Positions 12,543-26,327 of a stretch of 51,064 bases of DNA are shown here, one piece after another. How positions within the stretch are numbered: the first letter of the stretch is position 1; each line of letters opens with the position of its first letter. Where the stretch lies: positions 1-51,064 of the IMG/VR virus record IMGVR_UViG_3300027791_000033; one strand, 5' to 3'. The notes below the pieces were generated by a model. The model ran no database searches and was not told where the DNA came from. It saw nothing but the letters and a program-made list of their open reading frames with translations. The stretch comes from a virus. The translations under genes were made by a program, and so were the position numbers.

Positions 12543-13091
12543 ATGGCTATTAACAACGGTTACAACAGCCCTTTTAGACAACAAATGGGTTTTTTAGATA
12601 ACATGGCTCCAGGGAATATTAGTACAATAAACTCGCAGCAGCCTCAAGATCAGCTTAGAATGTATTCACCAGCTCAAGCTCAATTGCAAAATTACCAACC
12701 TTCAATGGGTGGTGGACATCCCGGTTATGGCGGCTACGGCTCTAAAAATGCTGCTGGTAACCTACTTAACGGTGGCAATAGTACTTTGGGTCAAACTACT
12801 CCTTGGGGCTGGGGTGGTGTAGGAGGTAAAGCAGCAACAGGTATTGCTGGCATATCAGCTTTAGGCTCTATGTATTTAGGTAACAAATCAATGCAACTAG
12901 GTGCTGCAGATTTAGATTTTAGGCAAAAATCTTATGGTGATCAGTATGCCGCTCAAAGAGCGTTACAAAATGATCAAATGTTTGATAGGCAACAATTTAG
13001 AATGGCTGAATCTGGTATGAGTCCAGAACAAGCAAAAGCTGCTGCTGATCGTTATGTCAGTGAGCGTGGCGTTCAACAACGTAAAGCTTAG
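12543..13091 (+). CDS. Gly/Gln-rich virion protein, 182 aa
   Basis: TAGGAGTACC lies before the ATG. The first half is low-complexity, rich in Gly, Gln, Asn, Pro and Tyr (GGGHPGYGGYGSKN), with a short Gly/Ala hydrophobic segment at about 93-115 (GKAATGIAGISALGSMYLG). The second half is a charged helix (FRQKSYGDQYAAQRALQND). This is a common build for internal or ejection proteins. It lies in the run of virion genes leading to vRNAP. No specific family is recognised. Confidence 0.68.
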   Translation: MAINNGYNSPFRQQMGFLDNMAPGNISTINSQQPQDQLRMYSPAQAQLQNYQPSMGGGHPGYGGYGSKNAAGNLLNGGNSTLGQTTPWGWGGVGGKAATGIAGISALGSMYLGNKSMQLGAADLDFRQKSYGDQYAAQRALQNDQMFDRQQFRMAESGMSPEQAKAAADRYVSERGVQQRKA

Positions 13092-13110
13092 CATTACAGG
13101 AATATATAGT

Positions 13111-14901
13111 ATGGCATATCCTAAATGGACACAATTAAGCACTCCAAGTGGAGCTACTGCAGTTAACGCAATGAGTACTGCAGGAGATCTGTGGAAACAA
13201 TCAATGCAGACAATCCAAGGTGGTCTTACAGCTTACGATAAGGGAGTAGAGACTCGACTTCAAGAAGATAGCGATGTAAACACTGCAGCTTTACGTCGTC
13301 GGTTAGAAGGTGCTGGCACTTTATCTGAATTAAATGCTATGCAAGGTGATATTTCTGCCACAGGTTTAGAAGGATACGGTAAACGTATTGATGCAGATGC
13401 TCTAAGCCAATCTTTTAATAAAGAACGTGGTGTAATGCGTGGTGAGTTTCAAGATCAATTTAATGAACAAATAAGCACTGGCTATGCTAACGCTACAACT
13501 GTTGATGAAGTTAAAGCCATAAATAACCAAGTAGCAGCAGCTAATGAGAAAGACTCTTGGTTAGATGTTTCTTCACAAATTACGCAAGGAAGTGCTGGTT
13601 TAAAAACTGCACTAGATAAAGAGGCACAAACTGCTACAGATGCACAAGTACAAAAACAAGCTGGTATGAACGTTGCTGGACTAGAAGCTGCACTTGATGC
13701 CCTAGTGCCTGGATCATTGAATTTCACTGAAAACCAGACAAGAATTACTAATCAAATAGCGGCTACAAAAGATAAAGATCAAAAGTTATTTGATCAGGGC
13801 GCTGTTAGCTCTATGCGTGTTGCATCCGGAAACGGTATAAAAGCGTTAGAAGCTGAACGAGATAAATTGTTAGAAGCTGCTAAAAATAATCCAAATATTA
13901 GTGAAGCTAGTGTACTTAGTACATTTGATGAACGCAGACCTTTTGCACTACAGAAAGTATTAGACAATGTTGCTGTATCCACACGAGAGCGTATAGCAAG
14001 TGAGAAGGCTACTAACTTAACTGCACTAGAAACAGCTAAACAAGGTATACCTGAACAGTTTAGAGGCATGATTGGCATTGATGAGATGGGTAATTTAACG
14101 TTCTCAGATCAATTAGATGATGCTTCAAAAACTGATTTTGCTGAAAGAGCAATGGCTGCTGGGTATATTGGTACAGGTGATAGCTTTGCTGATAGAAATA
14201 CCCAATTTAATACAGCAGAAACATCTTCATTAGGTGAAGAATTTGGCTCATTAGGTGAGCAAGAAAGAGTTTTAGCAAACCAATTAAGACAGATTACTCG
14301 TGATCAGGGGATAGAATTAAGTAAGAAAGCAACTACTGATTTAGCTACAGCAACTTCTGCTGCCGATAAAACTTTAAAGACTGTTACAGCTAGAATAGTA
14401 GAAGATTACCGAGATGCAGTAGTAAGTTATCAGGTTGATCCAGCAGCTCTAAAAGCTTCTCAAGATGCTCAAGGAAGTGCGTATTCTCATATGGTAGCAA
14501 TGGGATTTGATGATAATCAAGAAGGATGGAGAAGAGGCAATGTAGCTCAAGATGAATTACGAACACTGATAAGAGAGGCAAAATCAAACGGATTTACAGA
14601 CTCAGAAATCATACTCTCAATAGACGCAAATACTGAAGCGGGTAAGACATGGGCAGATAAAACAGTAAATGTTGCTAATTTTCTAAAGTTCCTTGGCAAT
14701 CAAACTAATTTAAAAGAACGAGGAGCTAATCTAGATAAGCTAATAGAAGCTAAAGATTTACGAGATGAGGATATACTAAAAGCCGAGATGGCTCGTAGTA
14801 GTGAAGTCTCAACAGCTAATGCGGGTGCATTAAAAGCTTCAGGTGTTAGAAACACTAGTAATGCTGTAAGAATGATAAACAAAGCTTTAGGTGTTGAGTA
14901 A
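13111..14901 (+). CDS. Helical internal virion protein candidate, 597 aa
   Basis: I chose the ATG at 13111 (MAYPKW), just after ACAGGAAT and 20 bases past the previous stop. A longer reading from 13054 would overlap the upstream gene. The protein is almost wholly helical and rich in Ala, Thr, Glu and Asp with no membrane segment. It ends just before a terminator and the vRNAP gene. Long helical Ala-rich proteins in this place are typically packaged and ejected with the DNA (known for T7 and N4-like phages; inferred here). Confidence 0.7.
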   Translation: MAYPKWTQLSTPSGATAVNAMSTAGDLWKQSMQTIQGGLTAYDKGVETRLQEDSDVNTAALRRRLEGAGTLSELNAMQGDISATGLEGYGKRIDADALSQSFNKERGVMRGEFQDQFNEQISTGYANATTVDEVKAINNQVAAANEKDSWLDVSSQITQGSAGLKTALDKEAQTATDAQVQKQAGMNVAGLEAALDALVPGSLNFTENQTRITNQIAATKDKDQKLFDQGAVSSMRVASGNGIKALEAERDKLLEAAKNNPNISEASVLSTFDERRPFALQKVLDNVAVSTRERIASEKATNLTALETAKQGIPEQFRGMIGIDEMGNLTFSDQLDDASKTDFAERAMAAGYIGTGDSFADRNTQFNTAETSSLGEEFGSLGEQERVLANQLRQITRDQGIELSKKATTDLATATSAADKTLKTVTARIVEDYRDAVVSYQVDPAALKASQDAQGSAYSHMVAMGFDDNQEGWRRGNVAQDELRTLIREAKSNGFTDSEIILSIDANTEAGKTWADKTVNVANFLKFLGNQTNLKERGANLDKLIEAKDLRDEDILKAEMARSSEVSTANAGALKASGVRNTSNAVRMINKALGVE

Positions 14902-14987: not shown

Positions 14988-17900
14988 ATGGCTCAGAACG
15001 ATTTATTGAATACTCCATTAAACGATCCTAATCAAGAAATTAAACTTGCAGAATCTAGTTTAAAAGCCAGAGATACTTCTGTGCAGCCTGCCACACGTGA
15101 TTACTTTCAAGAAGCAATGGATGTAGCTAGTGGAAACACTAGTGCATTTGATAATGCTCCTATTAGTAAAGCAGAGAATCTATTAAGTGCTAGAACAGAA
15201 AAAGAAAAAAACCTTGCCTTAAATAAAACTTATCGAGACATATTCGCAGGAACAACGCAATCTCAAGATGATTTTCTTAATTCGCAAGGAGGAGCAGCAG
15301 AATTAGTTGCAGATAAAGATGCGTTTATTCAAGAAATAGATAATCCTTTTAAATACGTTGGTAACGTTGCTCTTAATTTAGGAAGTGGCATAACTGACTT
15401 AACTACAGGCTGGGTACAAGCGCCAGCTAGTGACATGATAGACGAAGAAGCAGACACTGCAAATTTAGCTCCATTTTTATTAAGAGATAAAGAACTGCAA
15501 TCTTTGCTAGCTGAAGCAACTGATCCAACAGAAATTGCTAACTTGTCTGCAGAATTAGAATCTATAACTAATATGCTAGATAGTTCATATAATGATGAAT
15601 TAGTTGCTCAACGTGATGCCGCATTAGCAGCTTTAAATGAATCACCAGATAGTTGGCAAGCAAAATCTAACTTATCAGAAATTGAATGGGCTTTAGAGAG
15701 AACTCCTACTAAGCGTCAAGTAAGAGAAAGAGCTGAAAGTAACATTGATGGTGCAGTTGCTACTTACGATTTTCTTGAAAACGTTTCTGAAGTAGTAGCA
15801 TCTAAAGTAAATAAAGCAGGACAACGTAAAATTCAAAGACAAGTAGAACCATACGCAGTAGAAGCGAGTGAGTTTTATGAAAATGGCAATTATGCAAAAA
15901 GTATTGGGGTAATGGCAGATGGTATATTTACAGTAGCTTTAGATAACCCAGGTTCTGCAATAGAGATGTTTGCAAACTCTTTACCTCAAATGTTAGCAAT
16001 GGTTAATCCTTTTACTAGTGCTCCTACAGTTATGGCAGCTTATAGTAAGCATGCTGACACTATGATGGAGGAATTTGTAAAAATAAATGGATATAGAGCA
16101 ACAGGAAAAGATAAAGAAATTTTAAACACAGGTGCCGGGGCTGCAGTATTTTTTGATTTCTTCTCAGATAAAATAGCTTTAAAAGGTGTAAAAGTAATAC
16201 CTACTAATTTAATAAACAAAATTACAACTAAGCTTGGTTCTGGTGCTCCTAAAGGCGCTAAAATACTTACACAATACACTAGTAACATAGCTGCAAAAAC
16301 AGCTGGCCTTGCTATACAACCTGTACAAGAGTTTGTATCAGGAGCTGGAACAGAACTATCTGAACAAGCAGGTGTTGCAGGCGGTCTTGAGGGACTTGAT
16401 AAAGTTAAAATAATTGAACAAGGAATGATAGAGGCAATAGCAGTATCTCCAGCTCAAGCTGCTGTAGGTATAAAAGATGTTGTTAAAGGTACTAAAAGAG
16501 TAAGTACAGATGTTAAAGAAAGTGACTTAGTAAAAAATATACGAGAATCTGCAGGTAAAGCCTTAGAAAAACTAGAAGAAGGTAGACTGGAAAAAAGAAG
16601 TGATCCAGACAGTCTTGTATTTAAAGCATTAAAGTTTTCACAAGATAATGCTGAAGACATTCAAGGCACAGTAGAAGCTGCTACAAAATACGCGTCTACT
16701 ATATCTACATTAATAACTGAAGCATTAGCTGATATTGAAGCTAATCCTGATAAAACATCCCCTGAATTATTAGCAGACTTTCAAAAATTAGTAGATATAG
16801 AAGTTGCTATTACTGATAATCTTACTAAGAGACAAGAAACTGGTGCAGGATTAAATGAAGATGATATTGCGCTAGAGATTGAAAAAAATCTTAAAAAGGG
16901 AATAGTAGCCGCCCTTTCTCCAGAAAGCCGTGAAAAGCTTAAAGGTAGCATTCTTTACAGCATGAAAACCTCTGATACTATTACAGAGGAGCAAGCCACA
17001 GTTCTTTTAGAAGAAGGTGACGTTAGCCAAGAAGAACGTTCTATTGTAACTGAGTACATTAAGCGTGTTAAAGACATGCAAGAAGTATCAAGTAATGTAA
17101 TAGATGGAGAAAACGGTGTATTCATAGGTGTTTTGCAGCATGTTCGTGGTATTGAAGCTGCAGCTGCTAGTGGAGATACAATTACAGCTTCTCAAAACTT
17201 AGGTAAATTTACTCAGTTTGCTGAGTATATGAAAGTTAAAGCTGATACTTTTCAAGCTGTATGGCAGCATAACCGAGATTTAAAAGCAGGTAAGACTCCT
17301 GGTGTACCATCTAAAATTGAGATTGTTTCTCAAGATGAAAAAGGCCATATCACTGAATTTAAGATACTAGATACTGCTAAATTTGGATTTACAGAAGATA
17401 GCGTAGGTAAAGTATGGAACTCTACTAATGATGGGCAAATTAAATCATTACAGAACCAAGTTGCAAAAGAAAATAAAATAATTGCTAGTTACTTAGCTCA
17501 AGTTAATAACACAGTAAATGGTACTAGCGCACCTGCTGTTGGGTATACTTTTGGGTCATCTAATTTAGGAGGCCGTACCGGTAAAGCTTTAACAGATTAT
17601 AGTGATGAAGAACTTGGAAAAGTAAGAGAAAATTTACGTATTAGAATGGAAAAAAATAATGCTAGAGTAAAGTCTGGTAATATTATATCTCCACAAGCAG
17701 CTAACAGTATTAAAGCAAGTCAAAAAAGTGCTCGTTCTGATATCTTAGGTATTAACGAATATTTAGGTGACGATGGTAAAAGCGTAGAAACTGAACTTCC
17801 TCCTTGGGAAATAGATACTGATCAAGCTACTGTAGAGCCAACAACAGAAAATAAAGCTGCTAAGCCACGTTCTGAAACCCCTTTACAAAAAAGAGTAAGA

Positions 17901-20900
17901 GAAGCAGCACCAAAGAATTTAAAAGATGCAGAAGCTGATGTATTAAAATATACAAAAGCTGTTGATGAATCACAATTAGCGATAAATAATAATACAGATA
18001 ATGCACAATCAGCTGAATTATTAGCAAAGAATATAACTAGCAAAGAAAAATTAGCTAGCGCAAATAGACGAGTAGCGCGTTTAGCAAGTAGTATTGCTGG
18101 ATATAATGAACCAAATGTTAGTTCAGTCGAACCAACTGTTAGTCCAGGTGATTACTTATTTAAAACAGGCAAAAGAGCAGGTAAAGCTTTAAAAAACATA
18201 GGTAATGATGTTTTAGAAACGTTACGTGCACGATTGCGTGATAGAGCAAGAAATATTCAAAACCTTACTGTGCGTACAAGTAAAGAGAAAGCACAGTACA
18301 AAGATGCTATTTCAGATCTTCTTGCAATAAAGAAATATCTAGGTGATGACGGTAAAGGTTCTAAAGCTACAACTAGCTCTGTAACTACAGAGGACTTAGG
18401 AGCTCTTATAGAGCCCTCTGAGACAACTACTAAGCAAGTTAAGCGCCCAACTAAGGTAGCTGATACAGTCGCCTCAGAAGAGGCTACAGTGGCTGAAGAG
18501 CCACTTGTATCTAATGCAAAAACAATGCCTACAATATTACGAGTTATAGAGGGCTTAGATGGAGCACTAGCTAGGGCTGATGTTGTAAATCGTGTTATAC
18601 GCGTTAAAGAAGGGTTAACTAAAGCAGAAGTTTTAGAATATCTTAAAAACAGTACAACACCTACTGGACAACAAAAAAGTATTGTAACAACGTTTATGAA
18701 CGCTAAATACGGCATAGACTTTTTAGCTTTATTAGAAAGCATGACTGAAGAAGAAGTTGTTAATTTTGTTATACAACACGAAATGTATCATTTTAAACAG
18801 CATGATAAGCCTGTTAATAAAGGCGTGTTGCACATTAATGACTACATGTCTGACAAAAGCAGATCACATGCAACAGATAGTGGTTTAACAACTGAAGAAG
18901 CAAAAAATAATAAGTATCTAAGCAATACAGCTATTGAAATGGAAGCACAGGCTAATCTTGTAGCTTTAAGAGTGGTATTTAATGATAAGAATATAGGTAA
19001 AGCACCTGAAACAATTGACCCCAATGTGGGTAATACTTCAGTAGGTTTGCTTTTAGCTAAAAGAGCAGTACTTGTTGTACAAGATAAGTTAAATAGTTTA
19101 TTTAATGAAGGTAAAAAGAACGACCCTAAATACGCTAAAATTATTGACACTTGGAACAAAGAAATAACTGAGCTCAATAAAGTAGTAGCTGCTGAACAAA
19201 AGAAAGTAGATACCACTGCTTCAGTAGCAGAGTTAGAGGTGTACGAATTAGTCAATGATATGCTTAAAGGCACATCCATTGATCCAGAGCATGTAGCTGC
19301 TGTTAACCCTGGGGCTAAGAATGTACAGTTTGTACAGAATACTATTTGGCAAACATCTTATGATGTTGCACTTGGATTAGGTAAGACAATAGCTAGTGTT
19401 TTCCAAGCCAAAAAAGAAAAAGAAACTAAGTCTGATGAAGTAATCAAAGAGACTTTAAACAAGCGCAATTTATTTAAAACAGTTCGTAATGTTTTTAATG
19501 CTATTAAAAAGAACTCTGCATTTTTAAACATGAGCAAAGAAGAATTAAAAACTGTTAACATTCTTGTAAGGTTTAATGATGAATTTGTTAAAGCTAGCGC
19601 TAAAGTAATTAAATACACCGTAGACAGTGTTAGTGAAACTGGGAATCAAGCTATAGACCATAGCTGGACGGGTGAAAAAGGAAAAGAAGACCGTCTTGTT
19701 GAAGATCCAATAAACTATCTTTTAAAGCAAATAAGTTACACAGATAAAGATGGAAATATTGTTAATACAGGATACCTGGATCCAAATATATTAAGCATTA
19801 TGGCTATGAGCGCTTACAGTTATTTGAGCACTATGGGCACTGGTTTACTATGGAATGATGACGCTGCTGTAAAACAATTATTAGGTTTAGATAGCAGAAC
19901 TAAATTAACTAACCGACAGATGGCACCATTTCGTAGAATAGGTACAACTCAATCAAATATGGCTGATCTTATAGGCTCTATGATTGTTAAACAATTGGGT
20001 TTAAAAGGTACAGGTGCAGCAAATAAAAACTTAGAAGCACAATTAGTTACGTCATTAGGTTTACACTCAATTCTTATGCTTGAAGAAATGGGCTTAGTAA
20101 CACGACCTTCGCTGCCCCGCTCCGCATTAGATGTAGAGACTATTAATTATGATGGTAAAGGCAGTAAGAACATTAACAATGCTAATGAAGAATCTAGTAT
20201 TGGAACAGCTGAAAGCGAAAACACAGTACAGTTTGTAAGAGTAGCGGTAGTTAAAGTAGGTAAAAAAGAAATAGTAGCACCAAAAGTACGTAAAATGATT
20301 GATGATTATTCTATTACAGATGCTGGAATAGAATCTTCTACTTCAAGTGTTATGGATAAATTATTTAATTTAGAATCACAAAAGGATTTTCCATCTCTTA
20401 TTCCTAGTAAAACTAATGAAAATACTAGATATTTAAACACTAATATTAAGATTCCTAAGAAAGTTAGTGAGGATCTTGATTATGCACAATCTGTTGAGTG
20501 GAGATTTAAACCAGAATTTATAGAGTTATTAAACGGAGACTCTCGTGAAGAAACTATTCAAGCTTTAAAAGATATTTCAGGATACAAAGAAAGTTTGGAG
20601 GATGTACCACTTTATGCAAAAGAAGCTGCAGAAGCTGTTAATAACAGCATACTGCGAGAAATTGAAGATGCTATAACGTTTTTTGACATATTAGCAGAAA
20701 AGAAACAAGATGATTTTTACTATACTTATAACAGCTGGAATAACAGCAGAAGTGGTATGGCACAATCGGCTGTATCTCCTCAGTCTTCTAAGATAATTAG
20801 GCATCTTATATATCCAACAGATAGCACTACAGGAGAGAGCTTTCAACAAGATTTGGATCTAGATAATGCATATCACATGCAAATGCTTAAAGTTGCTATA

Positions 20901-23900
20901 ACTCAAGCTCTTTTAGAGAATCCTAAGCTTTCTGTTGATAAAAATAGTTTCTTAGAGATAAATAAAAACTTTGAACGTGTAATAGGCGATGGTGTTGTAA
21001 ACAAAAGAAACGATATTGGAAAAGCAGGTAGAGAAGTACAAAAAGGTGCTAATCCTTTTGTTGTTGCAGCTAAATATGGTTTAGAAGGTACTTTAGCAGT
21101 AGAGGGTTTAATAGCGCTAGGTAAATACTATAAAGCAGTAGAGACCGGCAATAAAAATGTCACAGTTAACATAAGCATAGAAACAGACGCGACTACTAGT
21201 GGTTTAATTTTAAGTCTTCTTAATGCTGGTTTATTTACTGAATCTGCTTTAATAAAATTAAGAGCTGGTGGTTTATACGACACTGACACTAGTTTCATTA
21301 AGTACGGTAAAAAGAATGCTGATAACTATGTAATGCTTGCTAATTTGTGGGCAGAAGATATTAAAGCATCTGAGCACAATGCAAACGTGCCAGAAGTTGC
21401 AAGTCTTATTAATCTTTTAGGATACCCTGACCGTGATCAAGCTAAAGATCCAGTATTGCAAAGTAACTACGGTGCAGGTGAAGCAGCATTAAAAGAAAGT
21501 TACATAGATTCTGCAGTAACTATGCTTTATGAAAAGCTTACAGACACTGATTTTAATGTACGTAAAGAGGCTTTAGCATTATTAAATGCAGTATTGCAGA
21601 CAGATTACAAAACAATGGGTGGTAAAAATCCATTTAAAGTTCGTGCAATTAGTGAAGATAGAATAAGTGAAGCTAATTATAAAAGTTTTATTTTAGATAC
21701 TAAATGGAAACCTGCTTCAACAGATGCTGAAGGTAACGCTGTACCTGCCGGGTATCGTTTGTACGGCAGAAGCCCAGAAGAAATTAAGTTCCGTGTTATG
21801 GTTAATAAAGTTTATGGAGGAGCTTTAATTAGCAGTATGTCTAAAATAGGTAATGACTTTGCTGGATTAGGGGGTCAGCTTAATGACGTAGGTAATACTG
21901 TATTTCATGTATGGAAAGTATTTCAAGAAATTGCAGAAAAAGGGTATAGAGCAAATGCCGGTATTGATTACACAACTAACGACATGCAGGAACTTTTAGA
22001 TAATGATCCTACTTTAAAAGGCTTGCAACCATTTATAAAATTCTTTGATACAAGCAAAGATAGTGAAAGACTTTACGGTTATAAAAGAGATAAGAAACGT
22101 ACATACGATAGTGGCGTTGATAAAGTTACAGTAAGGCTACCAAACAGCGCTAGAGGCGCTAAAAGCACAAGTTCTGGTATATCTGTAAGCTTAGATCAAA
22201 CTCCTGGTGTTAGCTTAATAGCTAGGCTTATACAGGGCATTGATGATGCAGTTATGCGCACTATTTTAGGTAAAGCTCCTGTAATGCATATGTTTGATGC
22301 AATTTTTTCTAACATACTTAACGCTACTTCTCATGCTCAAGATTACAATGAAGCAATTCTTGCAATTAACTATGAATACTCAATGTTTGATAATGCTGTA
22401 CTTATGCTTGAGAATTCAATTGCTGCTTTTGTAGCTAATCCAGCAGCACGTAGAAAATTTAGTGAAATAGTAAAAGATGATTCAGAAGGTAACGTATTAT
22501 TTAATACAAACTTAGCAGCAATGTTAAAAAGTGTTAAAGAAACACAAAAACTTATGAATGAAAATAAAGAAGTGTTGTTTAAAGAAATACTTCGTAGATC
22601 AGATCATTTAGGAATAGAGACATCAGCTAAGGACAATATTTTAAATCCTGACGTTATACAAGACCCTGAATTTGATTTATTAGATGAGTTGTTTTTAACA
22701 AAAGATGTTGAACAGTTTTTTGAACAAAACAAACCAAAACCATTAAACTCAAGTGTTGATTCTGATATTAATCCAGAGACTTTTGTAGAGTCAGATAGTG
22801 AAATATTGTCTGGGCATAATGCATTAGACATTTTTGATACTTTAGGTAGGGGCGACAGACAAGGTAATTCAGTAGATTCAGTAGAGCATTTATCACATTT
22901 AAGAAAATTATTAGCTACTGTAATTGCACCAGGGCTTAATGCTTTAGGTGATTTTAGTTTAAAAATGAGAAGAGCTGGCAACAAAAATGTTGGAGCTCTT
23001 GAAGATCAAGACATATTACTTAATTTTGGTGTAAACAGTGGTAGTAATATTCTTCTTAATCATGGTTCTGAACGCACTACTTATGTACACGAGTTAGCAC
23101 ACGCAGTTAGCAGATTTATGTTTGATGATGCAAAGCTAGCACCTGTAGCTAATCAAATTATTAATTTACGAGAACGTACTCGTAGATATTTAGATGCTAA
23201 ATATAAAGGAGAAGGTTGGAAAGCATTTATGTCAGAAGATGAATTCTTAATTGGTCATAAATATGATAAAGAAGCAGAGCTGGCAAATGCTAAAGCTACA
23301 TACAATTACATATTTGGACAAGAAGGAGTTTTTTGGACTGCAGGTAATAAAAATAAAGCTAGTCCTAGAGGCATACATGAATTTGTGGCTTTTGGATTAA
23401 CAGATGCTAGGTTAATGTCAGAAATGTCAGAAATGCCTTTTAAAGCTGAAAGAACTGCAGCTACAACTTTAGGTGGCCGTATACAAGAGCTTTTTCTTAA
23501 AATGGTTGACGCAATAATTGGTAGAGTTAAGAACCAAGGAAAAACAGCTGACGAAGCATTAATACAAATGGTAGTTGCTTTAAATAGAGTAGATTCTAAA
23601 AGCCGTTTTAACACCAAAAGATTAATGGGAGCAATGGGTGCATTAGATGGGCCTATTTCAAGAAAAATTACTCAATGGGTGTTTACACCTATGCAAAAAG
23701 CTATGTTAAAAAGTTCTCAATACTCAGGCCCAGGAGGTTTAGTAGTTCGTAATCTAACTAACGTAGTAGGTGCAGCTTTAGAAGCTGAAGTACCCCAGTT
23801 ACCTTTAGAAGAAAATGGCCAAGTAGTAATGGTAGATATGCCATTTAGAGCAAGTTTAGAATTGTCACGTAAACGTTTACGTATAAGTAAAAATAGCTTG

Positions 23901-26327
23901 TTAGTGTATATTTTAAGAACGATAGCCGGCCCTATGAATGACATGGATCGTAAAGTTGAGCATATGCTTGCTATATCAAACACAAAAATTGACCAAAATC
24001 GTAAATCTGTGATTGAAGGTACTAAAGATCATATTGAAATTAGTTTTAAAACTGAAATGGTAAAAAGAGATTGGGAAGCATTTACTAAATCTATTTTAAA
24101 AACTGAGTTATATAGTTTAATACCTAACTTAAACAGGGAAGATTTTCCGAAGTTAATGAACATACTTCGTAACACTAATGGTGTACGTTCTAAAAGAATA
24201 AAAGATATACGTAAACAATTGTTAGCGTTAGGAACTATAGGAGCACATTACGTAAAACAAAGTGAAGGTCTTGGCGTCATGATGGCTACTGGTGTTACTA
24301 GAACTTCAATGTTACGTATGAACGCGTACATGATAGCTAATTCTAAAGGTATTGTATCAGATACTAAAATGCCTAAAGATTTAGTAGCAATGGAAGCTTT
24401 AATTGATGAATTAGCTACTTTATATGCTGTAGACAATACAGCACAATACGTAAATATACATACAGCAGATATTATTGATAGAGAGATTAAAGCTGATCCT
24501 AAAAACAACGGCGCTGTAGTGTTTATGGCTCAAGCTATAAGTGCTAAAAAAGATTCGTTAGAAAGAAACTTTAAAAATGATAAAACGCACACAGTAAAAG
24601 GTTTTATTAAATCAATTACAAATCCAAATATCTCTGTAAAAGTAGCTTTACTTTCTGAAGAAGAAAAAATGAGAAAAATGGGATATAAACTAGTTTCGTC
24701 TATTCCTACAGATTCTATTTCAGATCCATCTAAAGGGCAAAAAGCGCTTTATACTAGTGACTTTGTAACTTTGCAAGATTATAACAGAGGTATAATTTCT
24801 ACTACAGGCATGAAAGCAGCTGGCACATTGTTAAGTCAAATGCTTACTGCTACAAGTGGTGAAAGCTATAATTATGTTTCTTCTAAATTAGCTATAAAAA
24901 ATGCGGTTGCTGCTAATATTAAAGAATATGCAAAACATGTAAACAATCCTGATTATAAAACTACTGATAATGTAATGGTACCAGTTTTTGATACTTATCA
25001 AAATATTGTAGATTTTCGTTATATGATGACTGATCATACAAAAGTTAATGTATTAAAACAGGATATGAGAGCTAATTTTGTTTTAAGTGCTGCAGTAGGT
25101 AGCATGGAAGATAAAGTTCAAACTTCATTAGTAAATGAAGAAGCTTTAAGGCTTATGAAAGCCGACGCAGATGAAAACTTTTTAAAGAGATCTGATGAAT
25201 TTGTTAAAATAGGTCTTAAATCTGGTAAAGCAAAACATCGTGAGTTATACAGCTTACTTCCTGCAGAAACTAGAAGAATGATTGTAAAAATATTTGGTAC
25301 AGATTCAATAGTTATAGATGAAAAATATATTGATGTGTTATTTGGTCAAAGATCTTTAAGTATTGCTAATTTACCTTTTCTAAATCACAGGGTAGTTAAA
25401 ATTGCCGAAGTAATTTGGAAAGAAATAGTTTCTATGGCTAAAAAGAATATTGTTATAAAAACAGGATCTGTTTTGTATCACAACATTTTTTCTAATACTA
25501 TTGTTGGCTGGTTAAATGGTGTTCCGATAGAGTATATGATCAAAGAACAGTTAAGAGCTGCAAAAGATTTAAATGATTACATGACTACTAAACGAGCTTT
25601 ATTTGTAGCTAAATCATCTTTAAAAACTGCAAAAGCTTTAAATGATGTCCAAGGTATGAAAGATGCGCAAAGTTCAATAGATTCTTATTGGAAATCTATT
25701 AATAACAGCTCAGTACGCGAATTAATAAAAAGAGGCATGTTTCAGAGCATAACAGAAGAAATAGATGTTGAATCTGATCCATATTCTTATGCAAGCGCTC
25801 TTTCTGGAAAGATGGATAAATTTGCTAGTAAAAATAAAACTTTAGAAAAAGTTTATAGTGGTGTAAAAAATGTTAGTAGATATACATATATGTCAGATGA
25901 CACATCAATGTTTAAGCTACTGTTAAAAACTACTCAATATAGTGATTTTGTTGCAAGGCAGGCAGTCTTTAAATATAAGACTGAAATAGAAGGGATTGGT
26001 AAGGATGAAACAGAAAACCTTGTAAGGGATTTGTTTGTTAACTATGACATGCCTGATCATCAAATTCTTCAGTACATGAATGAGACTGGAATTACTATGT
26101 TTACTAAATATCCTATGAGGATGTTACGAGTAATCTATAAAATGATGAAAGGAAGACCTGTTGAAGGGTTAATGTTAATATTTCTTGAAGATTTTATAAA
26201 TATGAATATAGATGATCCAAGTGATATGAGTTTAAATATATTAAAGAGTCCTTTTGCTCATTTAGACGATGCGTTTACTCAAAGTGGTATTGAAATGGGT
26301 AAGAATTTCTTACCCAGCAAAGATTAA
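14988..26327 (+). CDS. Giant virion RNA polymerase (N4 gp50-like), 3779 aa
   Basis: A single-subunit RNA polymerase core lies near the middle. R1921 is in a degenerate T/DxxGR element (WNNSRSGM). Motif A is D2067 in ETDATTSGL. Motif B is R2149/K2153/Y2161 in RDQAKDPVLQSNYG. Motif C is D2437 in PVMHMFDAIF. The spacings 146/86/284 are close to the N4 values I recall (135/111/281). N4 vRNAP is 3,500 residues, is packaged, enters with the DNA and transcribes early genes. The N-terminal third has a hydrophobic Ala/Gly-rich region (about 310-500) and a duplicated 75-residue unit (855-930 and 1055-1123). Two HExxH zinc-peptidase motifs are present: H1264-E-M-Y-H1268, and H2701-E-L-A-H2705 with a later HEFVAFGL. 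The C-terminal third probably serves packaging. Confidence 0.93.
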   Translation: MAQNDLLNTPLNDPNQEIKLAESSLKARDTSVQPATRDYFQEAMDVASGNTSAFDNAPISKAENLLSARTEKEKNLALNKTYRDIFAGTTQSQDDFLNSQGGAAELVADKDAFIQEIDNPFKYVGNVALNLGSGITDLTTGWVQAPASDMIDEEADTANLAPFLLRDKELQSLLAEATDPTEIANLSAELESITNMLDSSYNDELVAQRDAALAALNESPDSWQAKSNLSEIEWALERTPTKRQVRERAESNIDGAVATYDFLENVSEVVASKVNKAGQRKIQRQVEPYAVEASEFYENGNYAKSIGVMADGIFTVALDNPGSAIEMFANSLPQMLAMVNPFTSAPTVMAAYSKHADTMMEEFVKINGYRATGKDKEILNTGAGAAVFFDFFSDKIALKGVKVIPTNLINKITTKLGSGAPKGAKILTQYTSNIAAKTAGLAIQPVQEFVSGAGTELSEQAGVAGGLEGLDKVKIIEQGMIEAIAVSPAQAAVGIKDVVKGTKRVSTDVKESDLVKNIRESAGKALEKLEEGRLEKRSDPDSLVFKALKFSQDNAEDIQGTVEAATKYASTISTLITEALADIEANPDKTSPELLADFQKLVDIEVAITDNLTKRQETGAGLNEDDIALEIEKNLKKGIVAALSPESREKLKGSILYSMKTSDTITEEQATVLLEEGDVSQEERSIVTEYIKRVKDMQEVSSNVIDGENGVFIGVLQHVRGIEAAAASGDTITASQNLGKFTQFAEYMKVKADTFQAVWQHNRDLKAGKTPGVPSKIEIVSQDEKGHITEFKILDTAKFGFTEDSVGKVWNSTNDGQIKSLQNQVAKENKIIASYLAQVNNTVNGTSAPAVGYTFGSSNLGGRTGKALTDYSDEELGKVRENLRIRMEKNNARVKSGNIISPQAANSIKASQKSARSDILGINEYLGDDGKSVETELPPWEIDTDQATVEPTTENKAAKPRSETPLQKRVREAAPKNLKDAEADVLKYTKAVDESQLAINNNTDNAQSAELLAKNITSKEKLASANRRVARLASSIAGYNEPNVSSVEPTVSPGDYLFKTGKRAGKALKNIGNDVLETLRARLRDRARNIQNLTVRTSKEKAQYKDAISDLLAIKKYLGDDGKGSKATTSSVTTEDLGALIEPSETTTKQVKRPTKVADTVASEEATVAEEPLVSNAKTMPTILRVIEGLDGALARADVVNRVIRVKEGLTKAEVLEYLKNSTTPTGQQKSIVTTFMNAKYGIDFLALLESMTEEEVVNFVIQHEMYHFKQHDKPVNKGVLHINDYMSDKSRSHATDSGLTTEEAKNNKYLSNTAIEMEAQANLVALRVVFNDKNIGKAPETIDPNVGNTSVGLLLAKRAVLVVQDKLNSLFNEGKKNDPKYAKIIDTWNKEITELNKVVAAEQKKVDTTASVAELEVYELVNDMLKGTSIDPEHVAAVNPGAKNVQFVQNTIWQTSYDVALGLGKTIASVFQAKKEKETKSDEVIKETLNKRNLFKTVRNVFNAIKKNSAFLNMSKEELKTVNILVRFNDEFVKASAKVIKYTVDSVSETGNQAIDHSWTGEKGKEDRLVEDPINYLLKQISYTDKDGNIVNTGYLDPNILSIMAMSAYSYLSTMGTGLLWNDDAAVKQLLGLDSRTKLTNRQMAPFRRIGTTQSNMADLIGSMIVKQLGLKGTGAANKNLEAQLVTSLGLHSILMLEEMGLVTRPSLPRSALDVETINYDGKGSKNINNANEESSIGTAESENTVQFVRVAVVKVGKKEIVAPKVRKMIDDYSITDAGIESSTSSVMDKLFNLESQKDFPSLIPSKTNENTRYLNTNIKIPKKVSEDLDYAQSVEWRFKPEFIELLNGDSREETIQALKDISGYKESLEDVPLYAKEAAEAVNNSILREIEDAITFFDILAEKKQDDFYYTYNSWNNSRSGMAQSAVSPQSSKIIRHLIYPTDSTTGESFQQDLDLDNAYHMQMLKVAITQALLENPKLSVDKNSFLEINKNFERVIGDGVVNKRNDIGKAGREVQKGANPFVVAAKYGLEGTLAVEGLIALGKYYKAVETGNKNVTVNISIETDATTSGLILSLLNAGLFTESALIKLRAGGLYDTDTSFIKYGKKNADNYVMLANLWAEDIKASEHNANVPEVASLINLLGYPDRDQAKDPVLQSNYGAGEAALKESYIDSAVTMLYEKLTDTDFNVRKEALALLNAVLQTDYKTMGGKNPFKVRAISEDRISEANYKSFILDTKWKPASTDAEGNAVPAGYRLYGRSPEEIKFRVMVNKVYGGALISSMSKIGNDFAGLGGQLNDVGNTVFHVWKVFQEIAEKGYRANAGIDYTTNDMQELLDNDPTLKGLQPFIKFFDTSKDSERLYGYKRDKKRTYDSGVDKVTVRLPNSARGAKSTSSGISVSLDQTPGVSLIARLIQGIDDAVMRTILGKAPVMHMFDAIFSNILNATSHAQDYNEAILAINYEYSMFDNAVLMLENSIAAFVANPAARRKFSEIVKDDSEGNVLFNTNLAAMLKSVKETQKLMNENKEVLFKEILRRSDHLGIETSAKDNILNPDVIQDPEFDLLDELFLTKDVEQFFEQNKPKPLNSSVDSDINPETFVESDSEILSGHNALDIFDTLGRGDRQGNSVDSVEHLSHLRKLLATVIAPGLNALGDFSLKMRRAGNKNVGALEDQDILLNFGVNSGSNILLNHGSERTTYVHELAHAVSRFMFDDAKLAPVANQIINLRERTRRYLDAKYKGEGWKAFMSEDEFLIGHKYDKEAELANAKATYNYIFGQEGVFWTAGNKNKASPRGIHEFVAFGLTDARLMSEMSEMPFKAERTAATTLGGRIQELFLKMVDAIIGRVKNQGKTADEALIQMVVALNRVDSKSRFNTKRLMGAMGALDGPISRKITQWVFTPMQKAMLKSSQYSGPGGLVVRNLTNVVGAALEAEVPQLPLEENGQVVMVDMPFRASLELSRKRLRISKNSLLVYILRTIAGPMNDMDRKVEHMLAISNTKIDQNRKSVIEGTKDHIEISFKTEMVKRDWEAFTKSILKTELYSLIPNLNREDFPKLMNILRNTNGVRSKRIKDIRKQLLALGTIGAHYVKQSEGLGVMMATGVTRTSMLRMNAYMIANSKGIVSDTKMPKDLVAMEALIDELATLYAVDNTAQYVNIHTADIIDREIKADPKNNGAVVFMAQAISAKKDSLERNFKNDKTHTVKGFIKSITNPNISVKVALLSEEEKMRKMGYKLVSSIPTDSISDPSKGQKALYTSDFVTLQDYNRGIISTTGMKAAGTLLSQMLTATSGESYNYVSSKLAIKNAVAANIKEYAKHVNNPDYKTTDNVMVPVFDTYQNIVDFRYMMTDHTKVNVLKQDMRANFVLSAAVGSMEDKVQTSLVNEEALRLMKADADENFLKRSDEFVKIGLKSGKAKHRELYSLLPAETRRMIVKIFGTDSIVIDEKYIDVLFGQRSLSIANLPFLNHRVVKIAEVIWKEIVSMAKKNIVIKTGSVLYHNIFSNTIVGWLNGVPIEYMIKEQLRAAKDLNDYMTTKRALFVAKSSLKTAKALNDVQGMKDAQSSIDSYWKSINNSSVRELIKRGMFQSITEEIDVESDPYSYASALSGKMDKFASKNKTLEKVYSGVKNVSRYTYMSDDTSMFKLLLKTTQYSDFVARQAVFKYKTEIEGIGKDETENLVRDLFVNYDMPDHQILQYMNETGITMFTKYPMRMLRVIYKMMKGRPVEGLMLIFLEDFINMNIDDPSDMSLNILKSPFAHLDDAFTQSGIEMGKNFLPSKD

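Follow-up and report, generated by a model that had tools for sequence, protein, structure and literature searches.

A zincin-like metallopeptidase (MPTase) was predicted from sequence in the virion RNA polymerases (vRNAPs) of N4-type phages several years ago (Iyer et al., 2017, PMC5512222), and the C-terminal peptidase of these proteins is already known. In N4 vRNAP, it occupies residues 2130–2448, corresponding to the C1 domain. Three possible uses were proposed for such a peptidase: processing in the phage head, processing after injection, or an attack on host proteins (Iyer et al., 2017, PMC5512222). The vRNAP of N4 goes into the virion in unprocessed form (Iyer et al., 2017, PMC5512222), and the purified protein showed no evidence of degradation (Bellis et al., 2025, PMC12633501). 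The structural study placed the polymerase domain of N4 at residues 1007–2101 and described a C-terminal domain that is inhibitory, an N-terminal domain that binds membranes and flexible linkers joining the three units; no structural relatives were reported for the C2 domain (Bellis et al., 2025, PMC12633501). HExxH motifs are also found in alpha-ketoglutarate oxygenases, a possibility named for N4 C1 (Bellis et al., 2025, PMC12633501). The publications consulted contain no report of peptidase activity for any vRNAP.

The vRNAP gene and its two HExxH motifs

The DNA considered here (the window) is a stretch of 51,064 nucleotides from a virus, positions 1 to 51,064 of IMG/VR record IMGVR_UViG_3300027791_000033. 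An open reading frame (ORF) of 3779 amino acids on the plus strand (14988..26327; the features of this gene described below are all on the same strand) encodes, judging from its sequence, a vRNAP, and the phage is N4-like (Schitoviridae). When five segments of the protein were scanned, four matched phrog_2206 ('virion RNA polymerase'), with E-values down to 6e-145, and many N4-like vRNAPs from Schitoviridae are reached by the protein in tblastn searches. The portal, major head protein, primase and terminase genes are located nearby. A 615-aa ORF at 13054–14901, directly upstream of the vRNAP gene, occupies the position of an N4 gp51-type ejection protein; it has no match in PHROG. The limits of the T7-like single-subunit RNA polymerase core (aa ~1421–2569; 19248..22694) were mapped by alignment to N4 from the domain limits of Bellis et al. 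The catalytic positions of N4 are occupied by D2067, K2153, Y2161 and D2437, and both the T7-like catalytic residues and the N4 domain order are present in the window protein.

The vRNAP contains exactly two HExxH motifs, HEMYH (motif 1, aa 1264–1268; 18777..18791) and HELAH (motif 2, aa 2701–2705; 23088..23102). Two HExxH arose in 1 of 2000 shuffles of this protein. The preliminary description of this DNA was correct in stating that they flank the polymerase core, because the polymerase maps between them. In a set of 32 further vRNAPs or vRNAP fragments (85,179 aa, partly redundant), HExxH is confined to the two peptidase sites that follow the polymerase on its C-terminal side.

A predicted metallopeptidase at site B

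All of the retrieved vRNAPs that extend over this region, including that of N4, have an HExxH motif C-terminal to the polymerase, and its position is one of two that are fixed: site A, about 1260–1335 residues from the C terminus, and site B, mostly 1030–1100 residues from it, the two sites being about 220–230 residues apart. The domains at the two sites are homologous (hhalign, E 3e-14). Motif 2 of the window vRNAP, directly C-terminal to the polymerase, is at site B, and alignment to N4 shows site A to be deleted. The surrounding region (aa ~2586–2875; 22743..23612) is assigned, on the basis of homology and modeling, to a zincin-like metallopeptidase domain, in which HEFVAFGL (aa 2797–2804; 23376..23399) would provide the third zinc ligand, E2798, 97 residues after H2701. 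The two histidines and the glutamate of HExxH and this downstream glutamate are invariant across 11 site-B domains, and the same four positions are invariant in 13 site-A domains. In an alignment of 20 vRNAPs, the downstream glutamate was retained in all 12 site-B sequences with HExxH and was missing from all eight without it. This co-loss is the best evidence in the analysis for E2798 as the probable third ligand. The region shares with the described N4 peptidase HExxH and a downstream glutamate in [HA]EF.A.GLT, as well as the similarity of site-A and site-B profiles given above, and it also matches phrog_2206 (E 1.6e-11).

In an AlphaFold2 model of the site-B domain built from 11 sequences (pLDDT 74, pTM 0.78), HExxH lies on one helix and the glutamate on a later one, together with a further helix and a three-stranded sheet. 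The top structural match in VIA-align was the zincin endopeptidase of lethal factor, with a Z-score of 6.3 that is below 8 and within the range of common arrangements, and the next ranks were mostly occupied by other zincins. Foldseek gave no match to the PDB at E<=0.001, and in a viral library the model matched vRNAPs, polyvalent proteins and internal core proteins. Given the low Z-score and the non-significant Foldseek result, it is chiefly the ligand pattern and homology that speak for the fold. The earlier suggestion that HELAH and HEFVAFGL form a peptidase of the polyvalent-protein type, with a third ligand, is borne out by the invariant residues of its relatives, the co-loss and the zincin-like model, and motif 2 is well supported as the predicted active site of a metallopeptidase fused behind the polymerase.

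The fate of the two sites differs between phages. HExxH is intact at both in Vibrio phage phi 1 (L026) and on the contig of L030. In N4 (L013), LIT1 (L011), EcP1 (L010), KpCHEMY26 (L012) and the vRNAPs of four contigs (L024, L027, L039 and L040), site A is intact and the domain at site B has neither HExxH nor the glutamate, although it is still homologous to its active counterparts at that site (E 1e-26). Many other vRNAPs, like that of the window, have no site A at all, and every vRNAP covering the sites has kept at least one intact HExxH. From these alignments, vRNAPs are considered to carry a tandem A/B peptidase pair, in which deletion or inactivation of one member is common. The vRNAP tree has long branches, and the number of such events was not drawn from it. 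JA-1 and VCO139 (L009/L037) have the same active-type site-B peptidase as Vibrio phage phi 1 and the window, and their vRNAPs are 96% identical to that of phi 1 but differ by a clean cassette of 226 residues that carries the active-type site A in phi 1 and is missing from JA-1.

A profile of the domain from the window lineage finds its best match in the solved N4 vRNAP at residues 2443–2607, at the start of C2 (E 9e-7). The start of N4 C2 (aa ~2376–2607) appears to be an inactive metallopeptidase copy behind the active one. The peptidase of the window is on the same side of the polymerase as the MPTase of N4, in the same protein, but the alignments identify it as an ortholog of the dead site-B copy opening C2 rather than of the site-A peptidase. 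The assignment of the window peptidase to site B and the dead copy in N4 are new, as is the N-terminal insert with a zincin-like signature discussed below. A homologous HExxH/GLT domain is also found in podophage internal virion or tetrameric ejection proteins, which are 1263–1337 aa long and, unlike the proteins considered so far, are not virion RNA polymerases. The site-A profile matches chain G of 9sfn at residues 418–560 (E 2e-14), with HExxH and a WGLT motif visible, and gp48 of Pectobacterium phage PhiM1 (8vb2) at residues 380–490 (E 6e-4).

An insert-rich linker bearing a second HExxH

Motif 1 lies in a lineage-specific, insert-rich linker of about 500 residues, which connects the N-terminal domain to the polymerase and was delimited by aligning the protein with L004 and L017 (aa ~914–1415; 17727..19232). 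The EMEAQAN segment (aa 1317–1323; 18936..18956) that had been noticed about 45 residues after the motif is present, although the distance is 53 residues when counted from H1264; E1317 and E1319 are candidate third ligands, in the register of small phage HExxH...ExEA proteins, a set picked by its motif. Most of the linker, HEMYH and EMEAQAN included, has no counterpart in L004 and L017. The closest relatives of the window vRNAP (L004/L020 and L017) are 57–68% identical to it and lack the motif 1 region, so conservation of the histidines and glutamate, which was found for motif 2, does not extend to motif 1. The idea of a general two-protease vRNAP therefore falls, although a lineage-specific enzyme at motif 1 is possible. 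The only other copies recovered are 100% identical, originate from one IMG/VR contig and therefore add no independent information. The GC composition of the insert bears no mark of foreign origin. The linker also contains a pair of repeats of about 70 residues (GKRAGKAL...LGDDGK; aa 861–931 and 1061–1123, nucleotides 17568–17780 and 18168–18356) that align with a score of 98, whereas none of 500 shuffles scored above 50; no relatives of this repeat were found.

Searches for homologs of motif 1 in phages, plasmids, IMG/VR and genomes found none. Nothing significant was obtained for the region in Pfam, NCBIfam or PHROG, and tblastn against phages and plasmids gave chance matches only. Scans of viral contigs for DNA patterns encoding HExxH...ExEA or HExYHFxQxD recovered many small phage proteins that are unrelated, or fortuitous matches, and no true relative, a fixed-spacing pattern (QK...HExxH....D) gave a single out-of-frame chance match, and sets of 369 and 198 bacterial genomes, from two classes, yielded one match without HExxH and no match, respectively. 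Comparison with the known vRNAP peptidase profiles gave hhalign probabilities of 0.6% and 0.9%, and the match to projannalysin had an E-value of 0.3 (phmmer). Some resemblance exists to HEMVHxKQ...EVEAYA proteins, small phage proteins of unknown function (phrog_10499) that align in register from HExxH to ExEA (hhalign P 7e-4, probability 26%). They differ in being stand-alone proteins of 145–160 aa, the similarity is weak, and the match is not independent, since that very motif served to assemble the set.

The chance that HEMYH is a fortuitous, non-catalytic HExxH in an unstructured or helical insert is only a little below even. Any HExxH arose in 2.5% of shuffles of the window vRNAP, the insert is missing from L004 and L017, homologs and matches to the known peptidase profiles are lacking in the searches above, and a single-sequence model was all-helical with a pLDDT of 42, HEMYH being placed on a helix in this model only; fold searches were made without it. 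Weighing against chance, HExxH was followed 35–65 residues later by ExEA in 0.05% of the shuffles, the ExEA pattern having been picked after it was sighted; the in-register alignment with the small phage proteins points the same way, despite their selection by motif. From the sequence, a real second zincin in the insert is plausible, with a probability of about one half, and it is an evenly balanced question whether the HEMYH...EMEA insert, which is unique to this phage population, would be an acquired accessory zincin-like module.

Possible roles of the peptidase after ejection

For its two candidate proteases, the preliminary description considered release of the polymerase, processing of further ejected proteins and an attack on host proteins, all of which are conceivable. 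The reading that we favor, with somewhat better than even confidence, is that of a site-B zincin acting mainly in trans after ejection, with motif 1 as a possible accessory module. The identity of the domain, its ligands and its homology, the tandem pair and its pattern of loss, and the absence of the insert from relatives are supported by sequence comparison and modeling; that the domain is catalytic, what it cuts and when, and whether motif 1 is active are matters of inference. The two histidines of HELAH, together with E2798, would bind Zn2+, with E2702 as the general base. Site A would be the active copy and site B the dead one in N4-type phages, whereas the lineage of the window would have lost A and kept B. 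The site-B enzyme would ride in the virion and be ejected along with the vRNAP, after which it would most likely cut mainly in trans in the infected cell, its targets being ejection-channel or host proteins, and self-cleavage would not be obligate. A protease acting in trans is favored because the intact site may be A or B, about 220–230 residues apart, because the domain is kept in podophage ejection proteins with no polymerase, and because the N4 protein enters the virion intact and was purified with no evidence of degradation.

The main rival is self-processing triggered only after ejection, in which the site-B peptidase would cut the ejected vRNAP and free the polymerase from the inhibitory C-terminal domain, the membrane-bound N-terminal domain, or both; in a variant, motif 1, if active, would cut on the other side of the polymerase. 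Such processing was proposed for polyvalent proteins, and DdrB of P1 is indeed processed (Iyer et al., 2017, PMC5512222). The inhibition of transcription by the C-terminal domain of N4 and the flexible linkers between the three units would also suit this explanation. However, the published N4 data speak against routine self-cleavage of the vRNAP, the active site has been freely exchanged between A and B in different lineages, and the related ejection proteins bear the same domain with no polymerase to release, making self-processing unlikely, although it deserves serious consideration. It seems improbable that active proteases lie on both sides of this polymerase, the N-terminal one being a recent acquisition in the linker to the membrane-binding domain, so that after ejection the polymerase would be cut free from both its anchor and the inhibitory C-terminal domain.

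A mainly structural or regulatory function, with zinc serving in folding and in refolding after ejection and with zero proteolysis, would account for the retention of dead copies of the fold at site B in N4-type vRNAPs, and encapsidation depends on the C-terminal region (Iyer et al., 2017, PMC5512222). This seems a poor prospect, given that the general base glutamate of HExxH, which zinc binding alone would not require, does not vary among the retained active sites, and that all vRNAPs covering the two sites have an intact HExxH at one of them or at both. It is still more improbable, to the point of being close to dismissal, that the domain is a metal-dependent oxygenase of the HExxH alpha-ketoglutarate type, the possibility named by Bellis et al. 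for C1. A domain of this kind (8s5f) was among the weak structural matches of the site-B model (Z 2.6), but peptidase-type zincins ranked well above it, and the published profile search likewise reached a zincin peptidase (Iyer et al., 2017, PMC5512222).

Among injected polymerases, those of N4-type phages have been studied best. Catalysis can be argued to be needed, because at least one intact HExxH is always kept despite the loss or death of one copy or the other. The start of C2 in N4 gains an identity, that of a peptidase copy that is dead. Should motif 1 prove to be an enzyme, the linker between the anchor and the polymerase would be a site for the addition of new effector modules.
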